Below are positions 4,897 to 62,915 of a stretch of 64,000 bases of DNA, in pieces. The notes under the pieces are model-generated. The model worked only from the letters and a program-made list of their open reading frames with translations, was not told the origin of the DNA and did no database searches. The translations under genes were made by a program, and so were the position numbers. Origin of the DNA: Pagrus major. Its lineage: Eukaryota; Chordata; Actinopteri; Spariformes; Sparidae. The DNA is taken from the NCBI RefSeq assembly GCF_040436345.1, contig NC_133221.1, forward strand, positions 32,276,589-32,340,588. The letters are read 5' to 3'. How positions within the stretch are numbered: the stretch's first letter is position 1; every line of letters begins with the position of its first letter.

Positions 4897-7800
4897 CTGT
4901 TAAGGAGGTGATGGGTGATAGGTTTGTTAATAGCGACTCCTCCCTCCTCCTTAAGGATCTCCTCCAGAGCTCGGAGGCAGTTTACCATCACCACAGGGTC
5001 TGGGTCCCTCAGCAGGCTGTACAGCTCGTTCACTACTGCAGCATCTGGAACAAACATTAACAAGATGTTTGTGGACCTGATGTGGATGTACATACAAAGA
5101 GCATGAAAACGTTAACCATTAAGAGGTAGAGGTGGGGTGAAAACAATTTTATCCTTCTCAGAGTGTGAACACAGATTAGAAAACACAGTGGCTGGCAAAT
5201 CAGTTCTGTACTTGCCCCTTTTACAGCAGAACCTTCTTTTGCATGATTGTTTAATAATAGTATTATATACTAAAAAAAGATGCATCATGCATCTGTTTTA
5301 GTGATTTAGTGCCTGTCTGTCCATCGTTTGAGCAGTCATAAAGGAAATACAAATTGTGGATGTGGAGCTACATTTAACAGAATAATGCACTAAATCCTCA
5401 AGGTCCACAGCAATCAGCAACTCAGCTCAAATTTGCTATGCTATTTCATATTTCCAGGTTTCTCAAAATAGACTGGAGAGTTTCTCTAAGTTTGTTTTGA
5501 TTTAAATTAGAGATATATTCTGGTTATATTGATGAAATGTTTCTCGTTTAAAGTTTGGTATTTTAGACATGAGGTGAGAAATGTAGCTCTGTCTCTGTCC
5601 TCTGTCACATTGGGAGCACAGTCTCTGCTCCTCTGGCAGCTAGCTCTATTTATGCTGACCCTTCTCTATAGCTACGCTGTGCTTCCTTAGTCTGTACATA
5701 GTCAAAGCTTTGCTCAATTTAGGAGCTTTTACTGTGATCAGATAATTTGCTCGTGTGAAGTCTGGTTTTTGAGTCAGATAACATTCTAATTTATGTCATG
5801 TTTTAGTTTATTCCTTCCAATTCGTGACATAGTTTTTGTAAGTTGATAACTTGGTTTGGTCTTTTCTGGCTTCAGAACCTTAGCTGACTGCTATTGAGCA
5901 CTGAGGACAGTAGAAATGTCCTCTGCTGCTCTGAGTGAATATGATTTAAATAAAAAATTTTAAACGTTCTAGCTTAATTAATCTGACCATTTAGCAATCA
6001 CAATATCAAATCCTCTATATCCACCGATATCAGAGTATGCTCATGCTATGACCACCCATGACACTACGCTGCTACATTCCACGATCAACCTCATTACAAC
6101 TATCCACCAACTTATTACAACTATCCACCAACTCATTACAACTATCCACCAACTCATTACAACTATCCACCACCTCATTACAACTATCCACCAACTCATT
6201 ACAACTATCCACCAACTCATTACAACTATCCACCAACTCATTACAACTATCCACCAACTTATTACAACTATCCACCAACTCATTACAACTATCCACCAAC
6301 TCATTACAACTATCCACCAACTCATTACAACTATCCACCACCTCATTACAACTATCCACCAACTTATTACAACTATCCACCAACTCATTACAACTATCCA
6401 CCAACTTATTACAACTATCCACCAACTCATTACAACTATCCACCAACTCATTACAACTATCCACCACCTCATTACAACTATCCACCAACTCATTACAACT
6501 ATCCACCAACTCATTACAACTATCCACCAACTTATTACAACTATCCACCAACTCATTACAACTATCCACCAACTCATTACAACTATCCACCAACTCATTA
6601 CAACTATCCACCACCTCATTACAACTATCCACCAACTTATTACAACTATCCACCAACTCATTACAACTATCCACCAACTTATTACAACTATCCACCAACT
6701 CATTACAACTATCCACCAACTTATTACAACTATCCACCAACTCATTACAACTATCCACCAACTCATTACAACTATCCACCAACTCATTACAACTATCCAC
6801 CACCTCATTACAACTATCCACCAACTTATTACAACTATCCACCAACTCATTACAACTATCCACCAACTTATTACAACTATCCACCAACTTATTACAACTA
6901 TCCACCAACTCATTACAACTATCCACCAACTCATTACAACTATCCACCACCTCATTACAACTATCCACCAACTCATTACAACTATCCACCAACTCATTAC
7001 AACTATCCACCAACTTATTACAACTATCCACCAACTCATTACAACTATCCACCAACTCATTACAACTATCCACCAACTCATTACAACTATCCACCACCTC
7101 ATTACAACTATCCACCAACTTATTACAACTATCCACCAACTCATTACAACTATCCACCAACTTATTACAACTATCCACCAACTCATTACAACTATCCACC
7201 AACTCATTACAACTATCCACCACCTCATTACAACTATCCACCAACTCATTACAACTATCCACCACCTCATTACAACTATCCACCAACTTATTACAACTAT
7301 CCACCAACTCATTACAACTATCCACCAACTCATTACAACTATCCACCAACTTATTACAACTATCCACCACCTCATTACAACTATCCACCAACTTATTACA
7401 ACTATCCACCAACTCATTACAACTATCCACCAACTTATTACAACTATCCACCAACTCATTACAACTATCCACCACCTCATTACAACTATCCACCAACTTA
7501 TTACAACTATCCACCAACTTATTACAACTATCCACCACCTCATTACAACTATCCACCAACTTATTACAACTATCCACCAACTCATTACAACTATCCACCA
7601 ACTTATTACAACTATCCACCACCTCATTACAACTATCCACCAACTTATTACAACTATCCACCAACTTATTACAACTATCCACCACCTCATTACAACTATC
7701 CACCAACTTATTACAACTATCCACCAACTTATTACAACTATCCACCAACTTATTACAACTATCCACCACCTCATTACAACTATCCACCAACTTATTACAA

Positions 7801-10800
7801 CTATCCACCAACTTATTACAACTATCCACCACCTCATTACAACTATCCACCAACTTATTACAACTATCCACCAACTTATTACAACTATCCACCACCTCAT
7901 TACAACTATCCACCAACTTATTACAACTATCCATCAACTTATTACAACTATCCACCAACTTATTACAACTACTAAGTTGGTGGATAGTTGTAATAAGTTG
8001 GTGAATAAGGTAATGAGGTGGTGGATAGTTGTAATGAGGTGGTCCAGATGTAAGTGGACAGCAGAGTCTTGACCTGAGGAGTTGGCCCTCCTGTGTTGTG
8101 CCATTCGTTTATGGAGGAGTTGTTCCATCAACTACAACTTTGTTGAGTGGTCCGAACAGAATCACCTGAGGCTGAATGTCAACAAGACCAGAGAGATGGT
8201 GATTGACTTCAGGAGGAAGAAGATGCCTTCACAGCCACTACGGATCAGGGGGGAGGTGGTGGAAGAGGTGGACGACTACAAGTACCTGGGAGTGGTGATA
8301 GACAACAGATTGGACTGGAAAACTAATACCGAGGCTGTGTACAAGAAGGGGATGAGCAGACTCTATTTCCTGAGGAAGCTGAGAGCCTTCAACGTGTGCA
8401 GCAAGATGTTGGAGATCTTCTACCAGTCTGTTGTTGCCGGCGCAATTTTCTTTGCTGCTGTGTGTTGGGGCAGCAGCATCAGAGCCAGCGACACTAACAG
8501 ACTTGATAAAATCATCAAGAAGGCTGGCTCTGTACTTGGTCTCAGGCTGGACTCTTTTGAGACCGTGGTGGTGAGGAGAACGCTGAAGAAACTTTTATCC
8601 ATCATGGACAATGATCAGCACCCTCTCGCTGCTTCAGCTCCGCTGTCGAAGGGGCAGATACAGGAAATCTTTCCTGCCACATGCCATCACACTGTACAAT
8701 AACAGCTAAAGCTCTGGTCATAACATACAGTCTCTACGCACTTTATATGTTTTTACACTGTTCTGCTCCTCATCTGTTCACTGCACCTTATATTTTATTT
8801 TGCACTACAATTAATACTGCTTATGTTTACATCAACACTGCTCATTTATACATTTTTATACATATTTTTTATATATATACATTTGTTATATTACATTTTA
8901 TATTGCTATGTTAATATGTCTAGGTTGTTCTTTTTATTTCACTGTGTTGTCATTCGTCTCTGTGTGTAATGCTGCTGCTACACCTTAATTTCCCAGCTTG
9001 GGATCAATAAAGTATATCTATTCTATTCTATTCTATTCTATTCTATTCTATTCTATTCTATTCTATTCTAGACTACTACTGTTAGTAGTAGTATATGCTT
9101 GGACATTGGGGAGACAAAACAACCTCTCCATAAACGATTGGCACAACACAGGAGAGCCAACTCCTCAGGTCAAGACTCGGTTTTCCACTTACATCTGGAC
9201 CACCTCATTACAACTATCCACCACCTCATTACAACTATCCACCACCTCATTACAACTATTCACCACCTCATTACAACATTTAAATATGTCATGGCAAAAT
9301 TTTGCTCAGAACTACAAACACTGCTAGAGCTTTGATACTTCAAGTCTGTCTTGTTTTTCTATGCATCTTACAAGCAGGCGAAGTTGTGTCAGAACCCATA
9401 ACATTTGTTACTGAATTACAGTGATAGACAGAAAGTATGACAGTGGTAAAGAAAAACAGAAACAAGAAAGCTATCCATCCACACTACCAATCTCAGAGTT
9501 GGGTTGGAGATTGTGTAGCTTGGCCCAACCAAGTACAGCCACTCGTCGTACACATGCTGCTCTGTCCCTCAGTCCTGCTGTCAGAGGCTGCTCCACATAC
9601 TCGACCAGACTGGGTAACCTAGGACACACAGTCAAAAATTTAACTATTCCTGCAGTCACAGGCTGATGTTACAGTTTGTACTAAGGGCGATGTGTATAGC
9701 ATCTCACCTGAGATTGGTCATGTTCCTCAGGGCAAGGCTGCGGACCATGGGGTTTGGATCCTGACAATCTTTCCTCAGGGTATTGATGACTAGCAGAGAC
9801 AGCTCTGGGTTTAAAGTTGCATAGGAACACAGGAAGACATAGACCAGTTTCTTCTGGACTACATCTACTGTGGCACATGCTTTAACCATCTCACTGAACA
9901 GGCCTGAAACATCCACACCCTGGGACATTGCCCTGAGACAGAAAGATAGGGGAGTGGAGGTAAAAAGAATGCGTTTAGGAGGGAGAAATGCAATGGAAAT
10001 CAGGAGAAAAAAGATAAACGGTGAAAGAGTAAGGTCTCATTCAGACCAAATCAGGCATTATGGTGAAAAAGCAAGCAATCCCATTCATTTTGAGTGTGGG
10101 TAGTGCATTTAGGCTGGAAGTCAAGAACTCTTCAGCTACTTGACTTTAAGGGACTATTTTATAAAAGAGGAGATGCCAGGCCTTCAGATGATATGAATGG
10201 TACTAGTGGTACAATACAGAAATTTCTTTGGGTAATTTATAATTGTTAAACACTCAGTGAATTAACTGTGTCAGTGCTCTGATGTCATTTTAGATGATAA
10301 AGTTTATGTTTACTGTAAAACATCCTGCCTCTTTTATGTACATCTTTTTCACAAGGGTTTATGTGTATATTCTGTGTGGATAAGAATATCTGCCGATATA
10401 TGGATGTATGAATTTCTGTGCTGCCCAATATCTAGTATCTATCTAGTAAAGGCATCAGCCCAAAAGATCAATGTAACTTTATAACATTAACATTGAATAG
10501 CTGCGAGAAATGAGAACATGAGTCACCAGCTCAATGGCTAACCCCCTATAACCAGGACAGACCAAGCATGCAGAGGAAGATCAACACTATATTAACAAGA
10601 CTAAGATTAATTCAGGTACGATATCTTACTGGTTACTTTAACCTGCCGGTTGTCTATCTAAAGTAATCAAATTATTTATTGTATAACATACCTGAAAATA
10701 TTAGTCCATGTGTTGTAATGTCTTGTTTTGTTCAATCAGCAGTCCAAAACCCAAATACATGAGGTCAGTCTACTATGATTAATTGACAATTCTTATTAAT

Positions 10801-22279: not shown

Positions 22280-22285
22280 TTTATT
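22280..22285 (-). terminator. sephs2: Candidate poly(A) signal AATAAA of sephs2
   Basis: AATAAA on the minus strand about 55 nt beyond the base of the SECIS hairpin. It is the first canonical signal after the SECIS and would give a 3' UTR near 950 nt. Confidence 0.5.
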
Positions 22286-22338: not shown

Positions 22339-22440
22339 CAAGTCCGACACCAATCCAAAGGCAAACATCCACTCTGCCTGGCCCTGTTGGCTGGGGTTTA
22401 AAAGGCAGAGCTTCATAAAAGGAAAAGTGGGAGGGACTTG
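22339..22440 (-). promoter_or_regulatory. sephs2: SECIS element (type II) in the sephs2 3' UTR
   Basis: On the minus strand the core is ATGA (22416-22413), paired across to GGAT (22370-22367), giving the non-Watson-Crick quartet TGAA/GGAT. Above it is an uninterrupted helix GCTCTGCC with GGCAGAGT (including one G-U), extended by T-A. An AAA apical motif follows about 13 nt after the quartet, then a mini-stem CCC/GGG, the type-II SECIS layout. Below, CAAGTCC (22440-22434) pairs perfectly with GGACTTG (22345-22339) at the base. It lies on the coding strand, about 800 nt downstream of the TAG and 80 nt before a poly(A) signal. It should recruit SBP2/EFsec to recode the TGA in exon 1. Confidence 0.88.
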
Positions 22441-23214: not shown

Positions 23215-26200
23215 CTATGACAAATTGGGGCTAGGAGCAGGGCTGTTGGAGCTGTTGTCCTGATTTGCGGCCTGGCTTCCTCGTGGCGGAACCTCTATAA
23301 TACGAGGTTTGTCAATGATGCGAGCATGGCGGTCGCCTTTCTCTACAATTCCGATTATCCATGCTCCGCCCGCTGCCCCCTGACCTCCAGCTCCAGAGCT
23401 CTGGCTCTTCATCTCTGAGCAAAACTTGGCTGCCTGCTCTCTGGGCAGACACACCAGTAGCCCACCTGAAGGAAAGGAGAGGACGAAGGGTTTAGGGTCA
23501 ACACTGATTATAATATTATACGCTTTCAAACAATCAAATCATGGCTAAATACCAGAGCTGCACAATTAATTAATATTTTGATGAAACTGCAATATGGCCG
23601 AGGACAATATCCAAATCACAGAAGTTGCAATTTTTTTTACTGTGCTGCAGAGATGACCTTGTCTACAAATCTGGTTCTACAGATGTGTTTGTTTGTTACA
23701 GAGCACAATGAACATATCCTGATCTTGAACCCATTTAAGTCATGTTTTTGGGGCTTGGAGCCATTATTTGATAGGGCAGCCAGGAGTCAGACAAGAACAG
23801 GAGGCAGAGAGAGGAAGTCATGCAGCAAAGGCTTTATCTGCAGAGCGCTGTGTTAATTCACTGCTGATGCAAACCCAACATTTCCTAGTGCTGCAGCTTT
23901 ACATTCAAAACATTTAACACATGGCCCTATCCAATACATATTACTATGGTCATTCAAAGATATACAGACAACACTTCTGTGTGTTAATCTGTTTTCATAC
24001 CAGAAGTCTCTGCTGACGTGCCCTGAATCAAGTTGAACAGGTTTCCACAGGCTTTACTGATGGCAGCCATCTTGGCTAGGATTGGTAGGTTGTGGATGAC
24101 GAATGCCACCTCATTTCGTTGCTGTGCTGCCAGGTTGTTGGCGTGACCTAGCAACCCGAAACCTGTCACATCTGTTGCAGCGTGGGCCTGGAACTTGTGC
24201 ATTAGCCCTGCCGCTGGGGACAAAAACATCAATATGGATGAGTCCTGACAGACAAACTTTGTATCATAACTATAAAATGTGACGGAAAGCTAAAATGTGG
24301 AGCCAAGCTAAATGGGCGTTCAGTCAATCATTTATTATTATTCTTAATGAGGTGAAAGCCTGCAAGACTGAGTAAATTCAAGTCACTGGTGTGGAGGCAC
24401 ACAGAACAAGCTCTTATACAATCTCTCAGCTATAAATTAAACAGTAAATGCATTTCCTTGATCAGTGATGACTGCAGAATTTCAGGACGTAATGAACAAA
24501 GTGTATAGTACCTGTCCGGTTTAGCGTTGCCATGGAGAACATGGCTTCCTGATAGGCCTCTTTAACTTCCTCTTTGGTGACGACTAGCTTGATCTTGTTC
24601 CACCTTTCAGGCTGGTAGGATATAAAAACAGAGACACATAATGGCAGAGGGGTGAGGAGTGGGAGCACAGAAACATGTCAATGTAATAACAACACTACAA
24701 ATACTGTTCATATGAGCACAGTTGTCGTGTCTCGACTTCTTATTCTTTGTTTGTTCAAAAAGGTTTTTCAGAGTTTCCAAACTCACCAATAGAAATAAAA
24801 AAGAGTCCTCAAAGCTGAGTGCGATAATGCTTTATTGCCTTCAATAAGAACATGAGATCAAACGAGACACAAACCTGTAAAAAAGTGTATCTGGCTTCGT
24901 ATACTGAATGCTTTCCTTGTATCTACTAAGACGGGACAGTGAGCCCCACGACTCATCCAATCACTCTACTTTGTTCCACTCCTCATTGGATTTCACTGAC
25001 ACAGCTGTTTTCCATTATGACTATCTCTTCTTACCGGGACATGCTTTGAACTCTTGTTGGCGCGACATAGTGGATGATCGCTATGCTTTAAACCCTCTTT
25101 GGAGGAATCTGGCTGACGCTCGCTAATGAGGTGTCTGCCCCTTGAGTGAATTCAGCTGCGTTCAAAGCTACAAAAGCCTGCTGCAGGACCTGAGATAGTC
25201 CAAGATGGCGTCGACCCCAAAATTCATTAGGCTCTAGAGAAGCGCTTTGCAGAATATGGCCTTGAGCTTTATCTGAACTCCCTCCAACTGTACATCCCCT
25301 CCTCTGAGCCTCTACTGACATTTCACACTCATGGTTTCACATTTCAGTGCTTCAACTGTTAGGTGCTTATTCAATCAGCTGATGTGGAATAACACATTTC
25401 TATCCATCTATCGTGATTTCTTCACACATGATTATTACTTAACACACTCACAGCCGTTATTATGGATTGATTATATTATTCTACAGAGTGGCTCACCTGA
25501 TCGAGCCACTGGTGAGCATTCACAGCCACCTGCGTTCCCAGAGGTTTAGTCAGAACCAACACATCGCCTGGTACAGCACCGTCCGGCCTGGAATAAAAAA
25601 AACCCCACACACTTATTGCTGCTTTTGTTTTTATCTAATTAGTTTTAGAACCTCTCCACAAATGCCAGGCACCGCTAACTTAACTAGCAGGCTGTGTCGC
25701 TTAATCTCAAAATAACATTAAAGAAAGAGGAAGGAAGTACTTGTATATTTTATCTAATGCCAAATGAATATGTGCAGTTATAAAAGATGCAGGACCACAG
25801 CAACAGTTTTGACTCACATGATGAACTCATTAGGCTGACAGACGACTGATGCTACTCCTCCTACGATGATCCAGGGGTTGATCACTGTCTGGCCTCCCGT
25901 TACAGAAGTCCCTCCCTCCTCTGCAGCATCACGAAAACCCTGAATCATCAGCGGCATCACCCGCTCACGATCCTGTGTTGTACATGCACATACAGATGAT
26001 ACTGAATCATGAAAGAAGACTCTAGAGAAATGGACAAATACTACATATGTAAACTCCCCCAGTCAAAGATCTGTTAAAAATATATACTTCACTCATACTT
26101 ACTCACAAAAGTGGCGTCAAAAAATAAAAGCAAAGTCAAGACCTTGGTATCTACCTACAAACACACCTTGTCATTCATCTTCTGGCTGACACTCAGCAGC

Positions 26201-28215
26201 ATCAGCATGTTGTCACACTCTGTGATGCCCATGGCGTAGAGGTCACTGAGGACATTAGCACATGCTATCCTGCCCTGAGAGAAAGACAGAGAGCAAAAAC
26301 TAGTCAAAACAGGCAAACGCCTTTAAGAATTGTTATCACATCTTTAAAATGATTATGTTTGACATGGGTGAATCAAGTTGGAACTAGGCCTGGGCTATAT
26401 GGTCAAAAAGTCTATCATGATGGTGAAGTTTCATATCGGCAGATATCATTAATTGTTGAGCTAAATAAAAATACTGTCATACTTATATATACATGAAGTG
26501 GCCCTCAAATGATGAGGATTGACTCAGAGTATCCTCCATGCAAAATGGTGACGTACTCCCCTGCGTGGCAATTATCAGTGCCAAGTTCAGCCGAGAACAA
26601 TAGTTTGTAAAAAGGTCCTATCAGTCGAGCTCTAGCCCAGAATTGGTTTCCATGTCCTATTTAAAACATTAACTTTGGACTGTAGGAGACGGGTCAAAAA
26701 GTCCAAGGGTATATATTCCATTATTGTCTTATGCCATCAATTGAAGGAGCTTTATCCAAAATCCAGCGAAGGAGAATATTTTTCCTGGCACTAAGTATCA
26801 AAACATTATAGAGTTTTTTCTTATACATATTAGTTATACGGCCATTGGGAAGACTCAAGAGCAGAGAAACTGGGTCAAGTTTGAACTCCATTTTAAAATT
26901 TTTTTGAATTTCAAATAAGACATCATTCCAGTACAAGACCAGAGACAGTCAGTGAGATTGCCAATCTCTATTTAATATTTGAGACATAACGGAGAAACAT
27001 CTTTTCTATATTTAGAGATATGGTTTGGAGCCACATGTGCTCTGTGTAGTATCTTGAGCTGTAACACTCTTGTCCGTTATTTTCCTTGCATTGTCCTAGA
27101 TATTTTCCCACAGGTCCTCTGTTATCACTACACCCAGTTCCCTCTCCCAGGTCTCGCCCAGTGCCAGAGATCTAACATTCGAGCAGTCCTTCAAACTGTA
27201 AAAGAAAGCACTAATGGAAGCATCCCCTTCAGCAAGAAGCATTTGTTTCTCAATTTGTGTGACATTCATATTACGTGTCTTTTGTAATGAAGTCGCTAAT
27301 CTGCAAATAAGGAAAAGATCCCTTCTTGATATGTCACATTTCTGTCATGAAGAAACATAATTTTTAACCCAATCAGCTATGTCTCTTAAATGTGCACTCA
27401 GTTGGTATCTTTTAATATCTGGGAGGTCCAGTCCTCCCATGTCACTTGGTAATTACAACACAGACATCCCAGTCTTCCAACAACAGCCAGATATTTGATG
27501 TTACTATCTGGATAGTAGGTCAAGAGCATCATTGTTGTTAGCTGTTAGCGGCTGTTGCTCCTCTTCCACTGTAGAGAAGCTAGGCAGCCAAAGTAGCACA
27601 TTTTTAAATTAGTTTATTTTATTGGCAATCTGACAGAAATATCACCGATACTGATAATAGCAAAAATGTGAATATTGGCCCCGATAATCAGCCAGGGCCA
27701 ATAATCAGTCCATCCCTAGTCAGTTCAATCAATCAACAGTAAGTTGTTCATATGAAGAGACCTGTCTTATTTCTCTGTTGTATGATTACTACTACTTTTT
27801 AACATAACTTCTAACTTTTTACTCACTTGTTGGGTAGACTTCCTGGTGACTAAAGTCATTGTTAGCGGTGGCCCTAGTCTTTGTTTGTGTGTTTGAACAG
27901 CTTACTTCCTGGATAGTTCATGTTGAGCATTGGCAGGGTGCACGTGCATGTTGTGCTTCATAGAGGGAAACACCTGCCAGTAACTCACCATCATGTATGG
28001 ATCCTCTACCAGAGGGTAGAAGAAGTCTGTGGTCTGGACCAGGGAGAGTCCTCCATGCCTCAGAGGAATAACACAGCAGTCCATCCCGACACCTGGAAAC
28101 ACACCACAGCCAGGGGGCAAAGTTGCAATGTTTCTCAATGCAACACAATAGCCTTACAATAAATATGAGTTGTTTAAAGTGTTCAGTTTTTTTATAGTGA
28201 GAATACTACTTTCGT

Positions 28216-28273
<58 letters not shown>

Positions 28274-29164
28274 TGTGGCGACAGTGAGGCTCACAGAACT
28301 GTTACATAGGATTGCATTACAATGTATGAACAGTACAGGCTTTTCTATGTCCGTGGTCACTCTGTAACTACACGTGCTGTAGGTGGCTCTACATATAAAG
28401 GCAGTAAACTAAGGAAGTTAGGAATTTTAAGTACTATTGCAGCACTTTAACTCGGGATTGCCAAACTCCTTTACTGGAAGAAATGTGACTAAGAGCATGA
28501 ACTTTGCACTTAAAGCATCACAGTCATTTGCGCTGAGTCATCTACCGTCTGGGAATTTGACAACTCACGGAACTGGTGTGCTCTTCTTGAACACTACTAG
28601 CTACTATCTATAACGCACTTACTATGTGACTTGGCGATAATGGTAACTTACAACTAGCTATAGCCAAGTCGGTTATGTAACAAATCCAATGGTTGATGAT
28701 TACTAAAGACAAACTGTTTTGATTCGCACATAGCTGTCCATCTGTCAAACGAGCTGCCAAATGACTTATCAAAAGCTAGCATCGTTAGCAAGAGTTACGC
28801 TAGCTAACTAACGTTAATGATTAAGGTTTCTGGCAAGATGTATGGGACATAATGGCTAACTATGCTAATTCAGAATTCGTTCCTTACCGAGTCGGGGTCC
28901 GGGCAACGGTTGGCCGAAGTCCGATACTTGGTCTCCGGCCTTTCCTGACCCGTCGGCCCGGTCCGCCTCCAGTCCCGCCAGGAGTTTGAGCAGAGCCTCC
29001 TGCGGGACCTTGCAGCCTCATCCCTTCAGGTCCGAAAAGGCTGTGAGACGGAACCCGCGCTCCAGGCCGTGCTCCTCGGGTTTGAAAGGCTTGTATCCGG
29101 GGGGAAAACACCCCTCGGTTCCTACCGCCTCTGCCGAGGGAGGAGGAGAAGTTGAGCCCGACAT
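23215..29164 (-). CDS. sephs2: Selenophosphate synthetase 2, selenoprotein (8 coding exons, in-frame TGA = Sec at codon 49)
   Basis: Makes monoselenophosphate from selenide and ATP, the selenium donor for selenocysteine tRNA (family knowledge); cytosolic. Minus-strand exons: 29164-28888, 28092-27989, 26274-26167, 25972-25818, 25587-25497, 24611-24512, 24213-24001, 23465-23215; every border is GT-AG and the phases join to 432 codons plus TAG at 23217-23215 (human SEPHS2 is about 448). Codon 49 is TGA (29020-29018) in the context [17 protein letters not shown], exactly where SPS2 carries catalytic Sec. Exon 2 has [20 protein letters not shown] and LVEDPYMM, exon 4 [12 protein letters not shown], exon 5 [11 protein letters not shown], exon 7 [15 protein letters not shown]; the last exon contains [23 protein letters not shown] and the TGA distinguish it from SEPHS1, which has a non-Sec residue there. 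A SECIS element lies about 800 nt after the stop. Confidence 0.97.
26380..26640. mobile_element. Possible hAT-type MITE in the sephs2 intron between exons 2 and 3
   Basis: TAGGCCTGGGCTATATGGTC at the left and CTCTAGCCCAG at the right resemble the GGGCTAGA/GGGCGATATGG ends of common fish hAT MITEs. No clean TSD seen. Confidence 0.35.
26690..27460 (-). mobile_element. L1-like LINE ORF2 C-terminal fragment
   Basis: The minus frame near 27440-27360 reads [20 protein letters not shown], then RDIADWVKN. Further on (26936-26721) it has [20 protein letters not shown] and [20 protein letters not shown]. These are the conserved L1 ORF2 carboxy-terminal segments. Located in the intron between sephs2 exons 2 and 3; 5'-truncated and mutated. 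Confidence 0.8.
28217..28271. repeat. (TG)n microsatellite in sephs2 intron 1
   Basis: About 27 TG units. Confidence 0.95.
29018..29020 (-). other. sephs2: UGA selenocysteine codon (recoded stop) of sephs2
   Basis: TGA in exon 1, codon 49, in frame from the ATG at 29164 with 43 further open codons to the exon-1 donor at 28888|28887. The flanking residues G-U-G-C-K-V-P are the conserved active-site loop of Sec-containing selenophosphate synthetases. Standard ORF calling stops here, so exon 1 appears as two unrelated pieces. Confidence 0.95.
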
Positions 29165-30059
29165 ACCTGGCTAAGGACGTCTGCAGCTACACAAAGCCAG
29201 TCGCGTACTCCAGTAAATAGAGACGCGAAGATGAATGGAGCGTGCGTCCGGCGAGCGCTTCTTGGAGTAAGAGCCTAGCGTACAGTTAGCCATAATAAAA
29301 CTGATACGACTTCCTGTCGGAACCTTCGGTGTAAAACATGTCCATGCATGATTAGGAGTATAAAATACATACATATACCAGATAACTTGGACATAGGACT
29401 TGGATGACTACAATATTAGAAAAAGGTAGTTTAAACCCATAGCGCAGTCAGTGATATAGGAGAAAGCGTCTTATTTTGAAGGCGGATTTGATGATTTTCA
29501 GTCTCTGTCTGGGCTTCCGCTCGACGCAGCACAGGAAGTTTGGAAAGCGTTACCACATGCCCTCGCTGTCAGGTGTGTCATTGTATTGTCAAGTATTTTT
29601 AGTCGATCCATTTATCTGTTATAGGCGTATTACTTTGAAAACATGAAACACGTTGTAACACCCACCCTGTCACGTAGTAAATATTGCCGTTGTTATGAAG
29701 TTTGAGAGAATAAAAAGGACAACAATTATGATTTTTCCCGAATCGTACTAAATGGTTTCTTCCTAGTTGAAGCGAGAAAGAAAGCTCACTAAAAAGAGGG
29801 TTAATCTATCAACCTACACAAAGTCAGATCAGTATAACACTCCTAAAAGTGAGTCACCCAATCTTAACAATGCAATTACATAAAAATCTATTGGAAATTG
29901 GAATAAACACCTTGTACATAAAATGATCGATGAAAACTGTTATTCTTTCATGCTGGAACTTGAAACAACTGTATAAGTGACAAAGTGACTTCCTCTCTCT
30001 GAGACCACTTTCCTATGGTGAGATCCTAGCGACCATGAGAACTGTGTTGCATGGTTCTG
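29165..30059. promoter_or_regulatory. sephs2 5' flank, probable promoter region
   Basis: GC-rich around 28880-29240, falling off after about 29330. About 400 bp upstream of sephs2, on the plus strand, ATGCCCTCGCTGTCAG is followed by GTGTGTCA (29550-29575), which could be a first exon/donor of a divergent transcript, but no downstream exon was found. No TATA box is evident. Confidence 0.35.
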
Positions 30060-33944: not shown

Positions 33945-50092
<16,148 letters not shown>

Positions 50093-57600: not shown

Positions 57601-60259
57601 TGAGCTCCACGGGATCCTCTATGAACGATGATGCCATTTTCCAGATGATTGATTGGTCAGGAGGTTTTGATTTATATGTGTTGATCTGTTATCTCCAATA
57701 TAGTTTGCTCTGGAGCCGGTTAAAGGTGCTATTTGTAAGAAAAGATGACTTTTGAGTCTCGTTCCCAACTCGTCAGAAACAGATGCTTTAGGATGGTAGC
57801 CGATCCGTCCAACAATCCTAAAGTGTCGGTTTTTGATGAGTTGGGAATGAGACTCAAAAATCAACTTATCTTACAAATGGCACCTTTTAAGTGTGCAGCA
57901 TAAGTTATCATGGTGATGCACCCCGGTAACAAGTGACCCACCATGGTAGACCTGACAACCCAGAGTTAATCCTGAAGTTAACTCGCTAACCATAAATCCT
58001 ACTTCGTAGGCCTCTGGTCAGGCTAGTTCACAGGCTTAGGTCCATCTCAGGCTCAAGCAAGCAAATCTGCACATTATTCCAAGACAAGCGTGCTATAAAT
58101 AATTTAAACCCAGAACTGTAGCATTTTTACCTTCTGTCTTCTCTTTAATGGTCCTGCACAGTTGTTCTAGCTGGTTAGATGTCTGCACAGGCTTCAGGTA
58201 GGCAGCGTTTTCTCTGAAATTACATTAGATTATCAGGCTTAAAATACCAAAAACAACATGAAGGTGTGCCAGGTGCAACAAATTCAACAGGAGAGTGAGG
58301 GAGAAGCACAGCCGGAAAACACCCACAAAGCCATGACAAGAGGTCTAATCAGGAAAAATAAGTCACAACGCCTGTGTAGATGCTGTGTTATTTAAAATGG
58401 ACCTATTACGCTTATTTCCAGCTCTATATTTTTATTCTGGGACTCCACTAGAGTACCTTTACATGATTCACAGTTAAAAAAAGTCCTTATATATCTCATA
58501 CTGGCTCTTCACTCTGTCTGAAATGAGCAGGTTCAGCTGCTGTCTCTTTCAGCCCCCCTCCCTAAAAGCCCACTTAGTTCTGATTTGACAAACTTCCTGC
58601 CTTGATGAGGGCAGACCTCACTAATTACTGTACAAAAACACAACCTTCTAACTTTATTCACTGATTTTGGTGAAAATGTTTCATATTTAATGGAGAAAAC
58701 AACATTCCATTTGTACATAACGCATCTATTATTGATCCAGATGGAAGGTTAATAATCATTAATGCATCTATTAACCAGACAACACTTACTCTTGCCAACA
58801 TTTACAGCCCCAACAATGATGATCCATCCTTTCTCTGCCACTTTTTTACCTTACTATGTGACTCAACAAATCTCATAATAGCTGGAGACTTCAGTAATGT
58901 TATCAACTCCACAAGTAATGGCTCATGTAGCTCTGGTAGCTCAAGAAACTGGCCCTCCACTGAAAAAATAAAACATACATGGATGATTTTGGTTATCATG
59001 AAAGTTGAAGAATGGGAAACCCGTCACTGATAGCATCTTATTTTTCCTCCCTCCATCAGTCTTCATCCAGAATGGATTTTTTCTTGTAAGCAACTCACTT
59101 ATCCAACATATCCTAGAAAACACAAGTCATTCAATCATGATCAATGGTCATGCTCCTGTTTCCCCATCAAAAACATATTAAGCCTCCTACAAGATGGCGC
59201 TTCAATACATCTTTAGAAGATCCTGATAATCAACTCCCTGATCAAGAGAAAGTGGACATCCTTGAAAAATGAAAAAATGTAATGAACCAACTTAAAACCC
59301 TACATAAAAGTATCATACATACAGAAGAGGATAAGGGCTCGTGTCAAAAATGTATTTGATTTCGGACTTCTTTCTCAGAATTCTGAGGTCAAAGTCAGAA
59401 TTCACATTACGTTCACAGAACTTGAACCCATGATGACTTGCAGAGCTCTGTAACGAACGGAGCTAAGAAGAGTTCACTGTAGGTGTGCAACCCTTCTCCT
59501 TCGTGTACGGCACTGCTTTGTTCATTTTTGCCTCAATGTTTTCTTTGTTACATGGTTTGTAATAGTCTCCTCAGTGGCAGTGAATCAAAACATCCCACAG
59601 CTTTGTCTTTATATGTCGGTGTTCTTTTATTGTGAATCGCTGTCATCCGATCTTAAACCAGGCTTGACTTAGTCTGATCATGTTTACTTTGTGTTTGCTT
59701 TTTGAAACTGTTTCCAGGTTTTTCACAATAAGTCCTGATTTTCTGAGCCTTTTTTTGAAACACCTCTATCAAACTTTCTTTCTTTTAATTCCCACATAAT
59801 ACAAGCATGTCATTTTCCAAAACTCTATTTTTCCAATGTTGCAGAGAGTTCATCTGGATATTCAGGTTGGAGAACATACCAACAACTATCCTGAAATTGC
59901 AGCTAAGGACAAACTCACTGAGCTGCAGCTGCGAGTCCGACAGCTACTGGACCAAGTCGAACAGATCCAGAAGGAGCAAAACTACCAGAGGGTCAGTAGA
60001 AATTTCCAGTCATCCAAGTGTGTGAGGGACCGGTACTTCATTAGGTACAGTTGCTGTCTATCCCATTACACTGATCTAAAGTCTACTTTGTGTATCCTGT
60101 TCGCTACAGTATCGTGAAGAGCGGTTTCGCATGACGAGCGAAAGCACCAACCAGCGTGTTCTTTGGTGGTCCATCGCTCAGACACTCATCCTCATCGTCA
60201 CCGGCATTTGGCAGATGAAGCACCTCAAAAGCTTCTTTGAGGCCAAGAAACTGGTGTAA
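51646..60259 (+). CDS. tmed4: Transmembrane emp24 domain-containing protein 4 (p24 alpha family)
   Basis: Type I membrane cargo receptor cycling between ER and Golgi in COPI/COPII vesicles (family knowledge). Exons on the plus strand: 51646-51784, 56284-56384, 56470-56595, 59845-59991, 60110-60259 (TAA at 60257-60259); all GT-AG, phases join to 220 codons (human TMED4 is 227). Residues 1-22 form a signal peptide ending PSYA; then [20 protein letters not shown] opens the GOLD domain, which continues with TPGLGMHVE and [19 protein letters not shown]. Exon 4 is the coiled coil ([17 protein letters not shown]). Exon 5 encodes [10 protein letters not shown], the membrane span and a cytosolic tail ending FFEAKKLV, with the FF and dilysine-type sorting signals. 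MALFAGGKL and [12 protein letters not shown] point to TMED4 rather than TMED9. A second ATG follows the first directly (51649). The 4.5-kb first intron carries repeats. Confidence 0.95.
51785..52339. other. tmed4 intron 1, proximal part, no feature seen
   Basis: AT-rich, without coding similarity. Confidence 0.3.
52350..52500. repeat. Fish LINE/SINE 3'-end-like fragment
   Basis: CAAGATTCAAGATTCAAAGA, then TTTATTCGTCACATGCAATT and GTACAGCAGCAGTGAAATGA match the generic 3' end of a common teleost retroposon in reverse orientation. Confidence 0.45.
52860..53030 (+). mobile_element. Penelope-like element 3' tail
   Basis: ACTCCCACACATAGTTTAAA, GCCTGCAACTCCCCTCCAGT and GAAGAAGCCTCTTGGATG are the reverse-strand counterparts of 13400-13520, extended by GAAATGTCTTCAAGAAACTG. 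A short 5'-truncated copy of the same family. Confidence 0.8.
53031..54289. other. tmed4 intron 1, middle, no feature seen
   Basis: No exon or recognisable repeat. Confidence 0.3.
54290..54680. repeat. Dispersed repeat, copy A
   Basis: Aligns by eye with 61095-61480 (TACCTCAGCCAAGGCC / TACCTCCACCAAGGCC, CAAATTGTACTCGCTC in both, TTTTTGTGTAATCCTGCTGA in both). A family repeated on both sides of the tmed4 3' exons. Confidence 0.7.
54745..55000 (+). mobile_element. LINE reverse-transcriptase fragment
   Basis: The plus frame has [20 protein letters not shown], then [12 protein letters not shown], the conserved RT block (L.LN..KTKE.I.DFR) of L2-like fish LINEs. Truncated on both sides. Confidence 0.78.
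55093..55575. mobile_element. Possible hAT-type MITE
   Basis: TTAGGGCAATTTTTTTCGAT at the left and GGCCTACCGCCCAGCCCTA at the right are the kind of ends found on GGGCTGGGCGATAT elements. Repeated ATATCG/GATATA words lie inside. TSD not clear. Confidence 0.4.
57715..57895. mobile_element. Foldback MITE (about 80-bp inverted arms)
   Basis: The left arm starts GTTAAAGGTGCTATTTGTAA and the right arm ends TTACAAATGGCACCTTTTAA. The inner parts GAGTCTCGTTCCCAACTCGT and GATGAGTTGGGAATGAGACT also pair. The spacer at the centre is about 15 bp. In the tmed4 intron between exons 3 and 4. Confidence 0.85.
58650..59340 (+). mobile_element. L1-like LINE endonuclease fragment
   Basis: The plus frame has [20 protein letters not shown], then [23 protein letters not shown] being the APE-type endonuclease motif, followed by [15 protein letters not shown]-type sequence in shifted frame. 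The fragment begins and ends within the EN domain. In the tmed4 intron between exons 3 and 4. Confidence 0.75.
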
Positions 60260-61863: not shown

Positions 61864-62915
61864 TACAGATATTGTAAGGATTTAATAACCACTTCAAAAT
61901 GCCCCCTTGGATGTTTTCTCTCTTGTATTGCTTTTATAAATGGAATTATGGTCAATATAATTTGGCTTTTCTAAACAAGAATTTACAAAAAAAATTATTT
62001 GATGTCAAAACGAAAACAGCTTTCTACAAAGTAATGTTAATTAATTGAAAATATACAATGTAAAATAAGGGATTTCATAAGTATTCGCCCCCTTCAAGTC
62101 AGTATTTAGTCAATGAACCTTTGGCCTCAATCACAGCACTGAGTCTGTGTGAATAGGTCTCAATCAGGCCTGCACATCTGGACACTGCAATTTTACTGCA
62201 TTCTTCTTTGTAAAACTGCTCAGGCTCTGTCAGGTTGCACGGTGATCGGGTGTAAACAGCCCTTTCCAAGTCCAGCCACAAATTCTCTATTGGATTGAGG
62301 TCTGGGTTTTGACTCGACCACTCCAGAACATCCACCTTGTTGTCTTTAAACCACCTCTGTGTAGCTTTAGCTGTATGCTTCAGGTCATTGTCTTGCTGGA
62401 AAATAAATCTTCCAAGTTGTAGTTCTCTTGCAGACTGAATCAGGTTGTCCTCCTTCAGAGTAGTCATAGGTGTCTTGGTGGCCTCCCTCACAAGTGTCCT
62501 TCTTGCATGTCTCTCAGTTTGTGAGGACGGCCTGCTCGAGGAAGATTTACACATTTCCATGATGGATGTAACTAAACCCCGGGGAAAGTGCAGACACAGA
62601 TGTCTTTATACTACAATCACTGCACCCAGGTGATCTCCATTTCAATAATTGTGACTCCTAGCACCAGTTGGCTGTTGAATTAGGTCAGTCACATAAAAAA
62701 AGGTGAATATTTATTGCAATCACTTATTTTACATTATATACACATTTTTTTACATTGACATTACTTTGTAGAATTCTGTTTCCATTTTGACATTAAAGTT
62801 GGGTTTTTTTGTAAATTCTTGTCAAAAAAGCCAAATTACATTGACCATGATACCATTTATAAAAGCAATAAAAGGGGAAAACATCCAAGGGGGTGTATAC
62901 TTTTTATAGGCTGTA
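61864..62915 (-). mobile_element. Tc1/mariner transposon with long terminal inverted repeats and C-terminal transposase frame
   Basis: The right end (AAGGGGGTGTATACTTTTTA, then TAGGCTGTA) and the left end (TACAG ... CCCCCTTGGATGTTTTCTC) are inverted, and the next ~80 bp also match (TATTGCTTTTATAAATGG / CCATTTATAAAAGCAATA). The minus frame 62560-62099 (153 codons) encodes the DDE part: FIFQQDNDLKHTAKATQRWF, WSSQNPDLNPIENLWLDLE. The N-terminal DNA-binding domain is missing and the element is about 1.05 kb, shorter than the 1.6 kb of intact Tc1. Confidence 0.88.

Follow-up and report, generated by a model that had tools for sequence, protein, structure and literature searches.

The minus strand of the Pagrus major sequence analysed here, a stretch of 64 kb referred to below as the window, carries an eight-exon sephs2 (SPS2a) gene running from 29164 to 23215. 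We identify this locus as the fish orthologue of SPS2a/SEPHS2 (selenide water dikinase 2) of vertebrates, and we infer that the in-frame UGA at its codon 49 is decoded as selenocysteine (Sec) by way of a SECIS element; to this reading as a whole we give a probability of about 0.96. Most likely, an enzyme that helps to make selenocysteine itself carries one. The initial annotation had already read the locus as a selenocysteine gene, and that reading is supported by membership of the SelD family, a SECIS candidate in the 3'UTR, an SRE-like stem after the UGA, a separate sephs1 and SepSecS-like exons in the same genome. The SECIS candidate, which is the decisive part, had gone unnamed.

The sephs2 copy is an ordinary vertebrate SPS2a, a gene already known. 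In one survey, SPS2 is a selenoprotein in all vertebrates studied, and the non-mammalian ones are described as having the multi-exon SPS2a alone (PMC3316567). Because of this the result adds little beyond the Pagrus major genome, and the surprise first attached to it was overstated. The locus does provide a clean worked example of a gene whose annotation needs knowledge of Sec recoding, since under the standard code a pipeline would give a truncated or shifted N-terminus to an enzyme with a central role in selenium use.

The coding part of the gene is made up of the following features:

28888..29164, minus strand: sephs2 exon 1, coding part (codons 1-92 plus 1 base), from exon joining and homology
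29018..29020, minus strand: in-frame TGA, codon 49, at the catalytic Sec/Cys site, from comparison with Thr (3fd5) and Cys (5l16, 3u0o)
27989..28092, minus strand: sephs2 exon 2, from exon joining
26167..26274, minus strand: sephs2 exon 3, from exon joining
25818..25972, minus strand: sephs2 exon 4, from exon joining
25497..25587, minus strand: sephs2 exon 5, from exon joining
24512..24611, minus strand: sephs2 exon 6, from exon joining
24001..24213, minus strand: sephs2 exon 7, from exon joining
23215..23465, minus strand: sephs2 exon 8, coding part, with the terminal TAG, from exon joining

The eight coding exons have AG/GT borders and join to 1299 nt, or 433 codons. The spliced frame has stops only at codon 49 (the TGA) and at codon 433 (the normal stop); across seven introns it stays in phase, and all 431 other codons are open. 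Each element first reported for exon 1 is present in the sequence, namely the ATG at 29164, an exon of 277 nt reaching 28888 and the TGA as codon 49 (29020-29018), and the claim that all seven later exons join in phase was borne out. The frame of exon 1 had also been described as open to a consensus donor. A donor, GTAAGG, does stand at 28887, but as a consensus site it is weaker than this wording implied: TCG/GTAAGG agrees with the consensus at only 6 of 9 letters, the same score as for the donors of exons 6 and 7, and the remaining four donors each have 8 of 9. The open frame of exon 1 is weak evidence alone, because the exon has a GC content of 65% and two of the five other frames over 28888-29164 are likewise free of stops. 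Frame openness as stand-alone evidence for recoding was dropped, and homology carries the argument instead. With its eight coding exons, the gene falls with the multi-exon SPS2a rather than with SPS2b.

The read-through protein matches the SelD family (TIGR00476) at 270.5 bits, against a cut-off of 125, and its matches to the AIRS and AIRS_C domains are both above cut-off. The closest solved structure is 3fd5, selenide water dikinase 1 (E 3e-189), which is human SEPHS1 (PMC6834634). The sephs2 product is identical to SEPHS1 at 280 of 375 aligned residues, and the alignment is ungapped around codon 49, with identity at 12 of 23 residues before the TGA (residues 26-48) and at 11 of 20 after it. 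Codon 49 itself aligns with Thr in 3fd5 and with Cys in both 5l16 and 3u0o, two SelD-family structures that come from Leishmania and E. coli, respectively. At the catalytic site the TGA places the gene in the Sec/Cys class and not with the Thr, Arg, Gly or Leu of the SPS1 type. The proposal that the TGA lies in the active-site loop of SPS2 is confirmed to the exact position; the flanks given for that loop, GKG and GCK, need correction on the upstream side, where the sequence reads LKG. LKG-U-GCKVPQ flanks are known from other vertebrate SPS2 as well. Between human SEPHS2 and SEPHS1, 75% identity is reported over residues 41-427, and the active site of SEPHS2 is described as including Sec60 and Lys63, three residues apart (PMC6834634). 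U49 and K52 of the Pagrus major product have this same three-residue spacing.

An in-frame TGA, taken on its own, would also be expected of a decaying pseudogene, or of a sequencing error for TGC or TGT in a gene that encodes a Cys enzyme. We regard the chance of either as virtually negligible, given that the 431 remaining codons stay open and in phase through seven introns, that similarity to SEPHS1 is found on both sides of codon 49, and that the gene has a SECIS candidate for which a Cys enzyme would have no need.

The position of the start codon bears on whether the UGA is translated at all. An in-frame TAG lies three codons 5' of ATG 29164, and this ATG is the first in-frame Met after that TAG; the next in-frame Met 3' of the TGA is codon 96. 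Over the start codon itself we identified one further feature:

29161..29169, minus strand: donor-like CAG/GTATGT over the start codon, a possible cryptic splice site, with 8 of 9 consensus letters

With 8 of 9, this string outscores the donor of exon 1 (6 of 9), and the six other donors range from 6 to 8. Such a string would be in keeping with translation of the main product from a downstream start, at Met96, or from a different 5' exon, which would leave the UGA untranslated. Alternative 5' exons have a precedent in Ciona, where SPS is described as using them and one gives a Gly isoform (PMC4561486). Nevertheless, we consider a start of this kind extremely unlikely for sephs2, as residues 26-48, upstream of the TGA, match SEPHS1 at the level given above, and a product starting at Met96 would be without the catalytic loop. 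A second GCK-type loop, as in a Ciona-like alternative exon, was sought across the window in all six frames with three motif patterns, and only the known loop was found. Furthermore, tblastn within the window returned the eight sephs2 exons, one weak match (E 0.40) and nothing else. The same donor-like string might instead act as a splice switch, by which exon 1 is either kept, giving the Sec enzyme, or spliced out, giving an mRNA that lacks both the UGA and the catalytic loop. We hold this to be very unlikely; were it true, the level of SEPHS2 would be set by splicing as well as by Sec supply. The string is the one small lead beyond the textbook SPS2a.

Decoding of codon 49 as Sec, our preferred reading, calls for a SECIS element in the 3'UTR, and there we located the following:

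22362..22421, minus strand: SECIS candidate (ATGA, 9-bp helix, apical AAA, small apical helix, GGAT), from Rfam RF00031 and a core scan
22280..22285, minus strand: poly(A) signal AATAAA, downstream of the SECIS candidate, from the sequence

The AATAAA lies 3' of the candidate, and therefore a normally ended sephs2 mRNA retains it. At the gathering threshold, Rfam listed nothing in the whole 64-kb window. When the 3'UTR was searched permissively, Rfam placed RF00031 (SECIS_1) at 22421-22362 with 20.0 bits (E 0.65; gathering cut-off 35), as one of 16 matches up to E 10, most of them chance-like, among which the SECIS ranks no better than chance families. In that list a mir-297 match outscores the candidate (22.4 bits), and mir-219 and several others have lower E-values. 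The core scan, which looked on both strands of the 64 kb for ATGA, a helix 8-13 pairs long, an apical loop with AA close to its start, and NGAN, returned 17 candidates. The site at 22421-22362 was the best of these, at 11.5 versus 5.5 for the runner-up, a gap that is descriptive only because the scan was written after the site had been spotted: the site was picked by eye beforehand and the rules were drawn up with it known. None of 2000 dinucleotide-shuffled UTRs reached the core score of the candidate. The placement by Rfam on the same bases is independent of the core scan.

It is by conjunction that the SECIS candidate persuades, as it is the one strong core of the window, it lies on the correct strand, and it sits in the 3'UTR of a gene with a UGA at a known Sec site. 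In the spliced mRNA the distances are 798 nt (~800) from the stop to the candidate and 1950 nt from the UGA to the candidate, compared with 555 and 1542 as reported for the multi-exon SPS2a of opossum (PMC3316567). The longer gap between stop and SECIS is due in part to a TG repeat of 107 nt in the 3'UTR (23191-23085).

Additionally, the bases directly after the UGA are predicted to form a stem:

28960..29017, minus strand: stem-loop, candidate Sec redefinition element (SRE), from folding and synonymous-codon controls

The 63 nt starting at the UGA fold at -32.2 kcal/mol in this prediction, which ranks second for stability among 412 such windows of the coding sequence. With the amino acids kept, equally stable folds arose in 3 of 2000 synonymous permutations and in 1 of 2000 codon resamplings. 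Dinucleotide shuffles gave a modest z that depended on the stretch chosen (-1.1 to -2.4 across four stretches); the synonymous-codon controls are the better test of this stem, which is predicted from a single sequence. The corresponding stretch of the genome's sephs1 folds weakly, at -7.6 kcal/mol. The predicted fold has the stable stem 3' of the UGA that defines an SRE, and in strength and position, directly after the UGA, it fits the known Sec redefinition element. In one study, SRE stem-loops are reported at this place in all UGA-containing eukaryotic SPS genes (PMC4561486).

A stable stem 3' of the UGA would be equally at home in a gene whose UGA is read through without Sec, an ordinary amino acid being inserted, as has been proposed for the insect SPS1-UGA genes that supply the precedent (PMC4561486). 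For sephs2 we find this explanation barely credible. The insect SPS1-UGA genes are described as lacking a SECIS (PMC4561486), whereas sephs2 has a candidate. In insect SPS1-UGA and in some metazoan SPS2 genes the UGA is reported to be followed by the hexanucleotide GGG-UG[C/U] (PMC4561486), which is absent from sephs2, where the corresponding bases are GGC-UGC. Moreover, the same genome holds a separate Thr-type sephs1 together with SepSecS-like exons.

These genes were found in a search of 786 Mb in 25 contigs, in which exons were scored separately and the scores are lower bounds. The SelD search gave eight matches at two loci, four at the sephs2 locus and four on contig 8, with none above the whole-protein cut-off when scored in this way; as a control, the family had a match in 13 of 14 genomes. 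The contig 8 gene reads LKG-T-GCKV and is a Thr-type sephs1. A sephs1 alongside sephs2 is what is expected in jawed vertebrates (PMC4561486). Directly after TGCK, this sephs1 has a 124-base intron (2449-2572 of locus L009) that is absent from sephs2, and its place in sephs2 is occupied by the post-UGA stem. Contig 10 gave eight stretches in the SepSecS search, the best at E 1.1e-22; taken singly, all were below the cut-off, and one contains a TAA. The control for this family matched in one genome out of 14. Within the 64-kb window, ARAGORN detected no tRNA.

In the mechanism that we propose for sephs2 as a Sec gene, the eight-exon mRNA would combine the in-frame UGA of codon 49 with a SECIS lying about 800 nt past the normal stop. 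By analogy with the established eukaryotic mechanism, SBP2 and eEFSec on the SECIS would deliver Sec-tRNA to the UGA, and the stem-loop after the UGA probably tips the balance toward decoding over termination. In human HAP1 cells, SEPHS2 read-through is reported to need SECISBP2 (PMC9599142). In the resulting product, Sec49 would lie in the catalytic loop, three residues before Lys52. From selenide and ATP this Sec enzyme would make selenophosphate, the compound that SepSecS could then use to produce more Sec.

Several other features lie in the window:

33945-34232, minus strand: IKBKG/NEMO zinc finger, domain match
45334-45624, minus strand: coiled-coil frame assigned to IKBKG/NEMO by eye, sub-cut-off DUF match only
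47961-48326, minus strand: NEMO N-terminal domain, domain match
9704-10036, minus strand: adaptin exon, Adaptin_N, E 1.1e-19
59800-60117, plus strand: p24/EMP24 GOLD-family exon, E 9.3e-11

The IKBKG/NEMO gene pieces (33945-48326, minus strand) are located 5' of sephs2 and share its strand. Human IKBKG is located on the X chromosome. Opossum SPS2a is reported on X as well (PMC3316567), and the two locations together would fit shared synteny. A satellite-like array at 6090-7971 consists of 89.6 copies of a 21-bp unit with 95% matches. Since the unit length of 21 is divisible by 3, five frames across this array run for 630-696 codons with no stop, and a short array with a near-identical unit lies at 9199-9277. 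The adaptin exon looks to belong to a beta subunit, such as that of AP-4. Frames resembling remnants of mobile elements are found at 8073-8702 and 62099-62605. The former is a 209-aa frame that adjoins the 21-bp array, has an ALKBH8_N match and looks reverse-transcriptase-like by eye, and the latter has a weak match to the DDE_3 transposase, below cut-off.

The features of sephs2 are those of vertebrate SPS2a/SEPHS2, which is described as multi-exon with one Sec-UGA near the N-terminus and a SECIS in the 3'UTR (PMC3316567), the SECIS of Pagrus major being a candidate; a stem-loop near the UGA is likewise common to both (PMC4561486). Human SEPHS1 (3fd5) and the contig 8 sephs1 belong to the same protein family, but they have Thr at the site where sephs2 has UGA. 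The insect SPS1-UGA genes resemble sephs2 in having a UGA at the homologous codon with a stem-loop nearby (PMC4561486), yet neither the absence of a SECIS nor the GGG-UG[C/U] sequence that marks those genes is seen in sephs2. Mammalian SPS2b is also a Sec enzyme with a SECIS, which in sephs2 is a candidate only. In contrast to sephs2, which has seven introns between its coding exons, SPS2b is described as an intronless retrocopy (PMC3316567).
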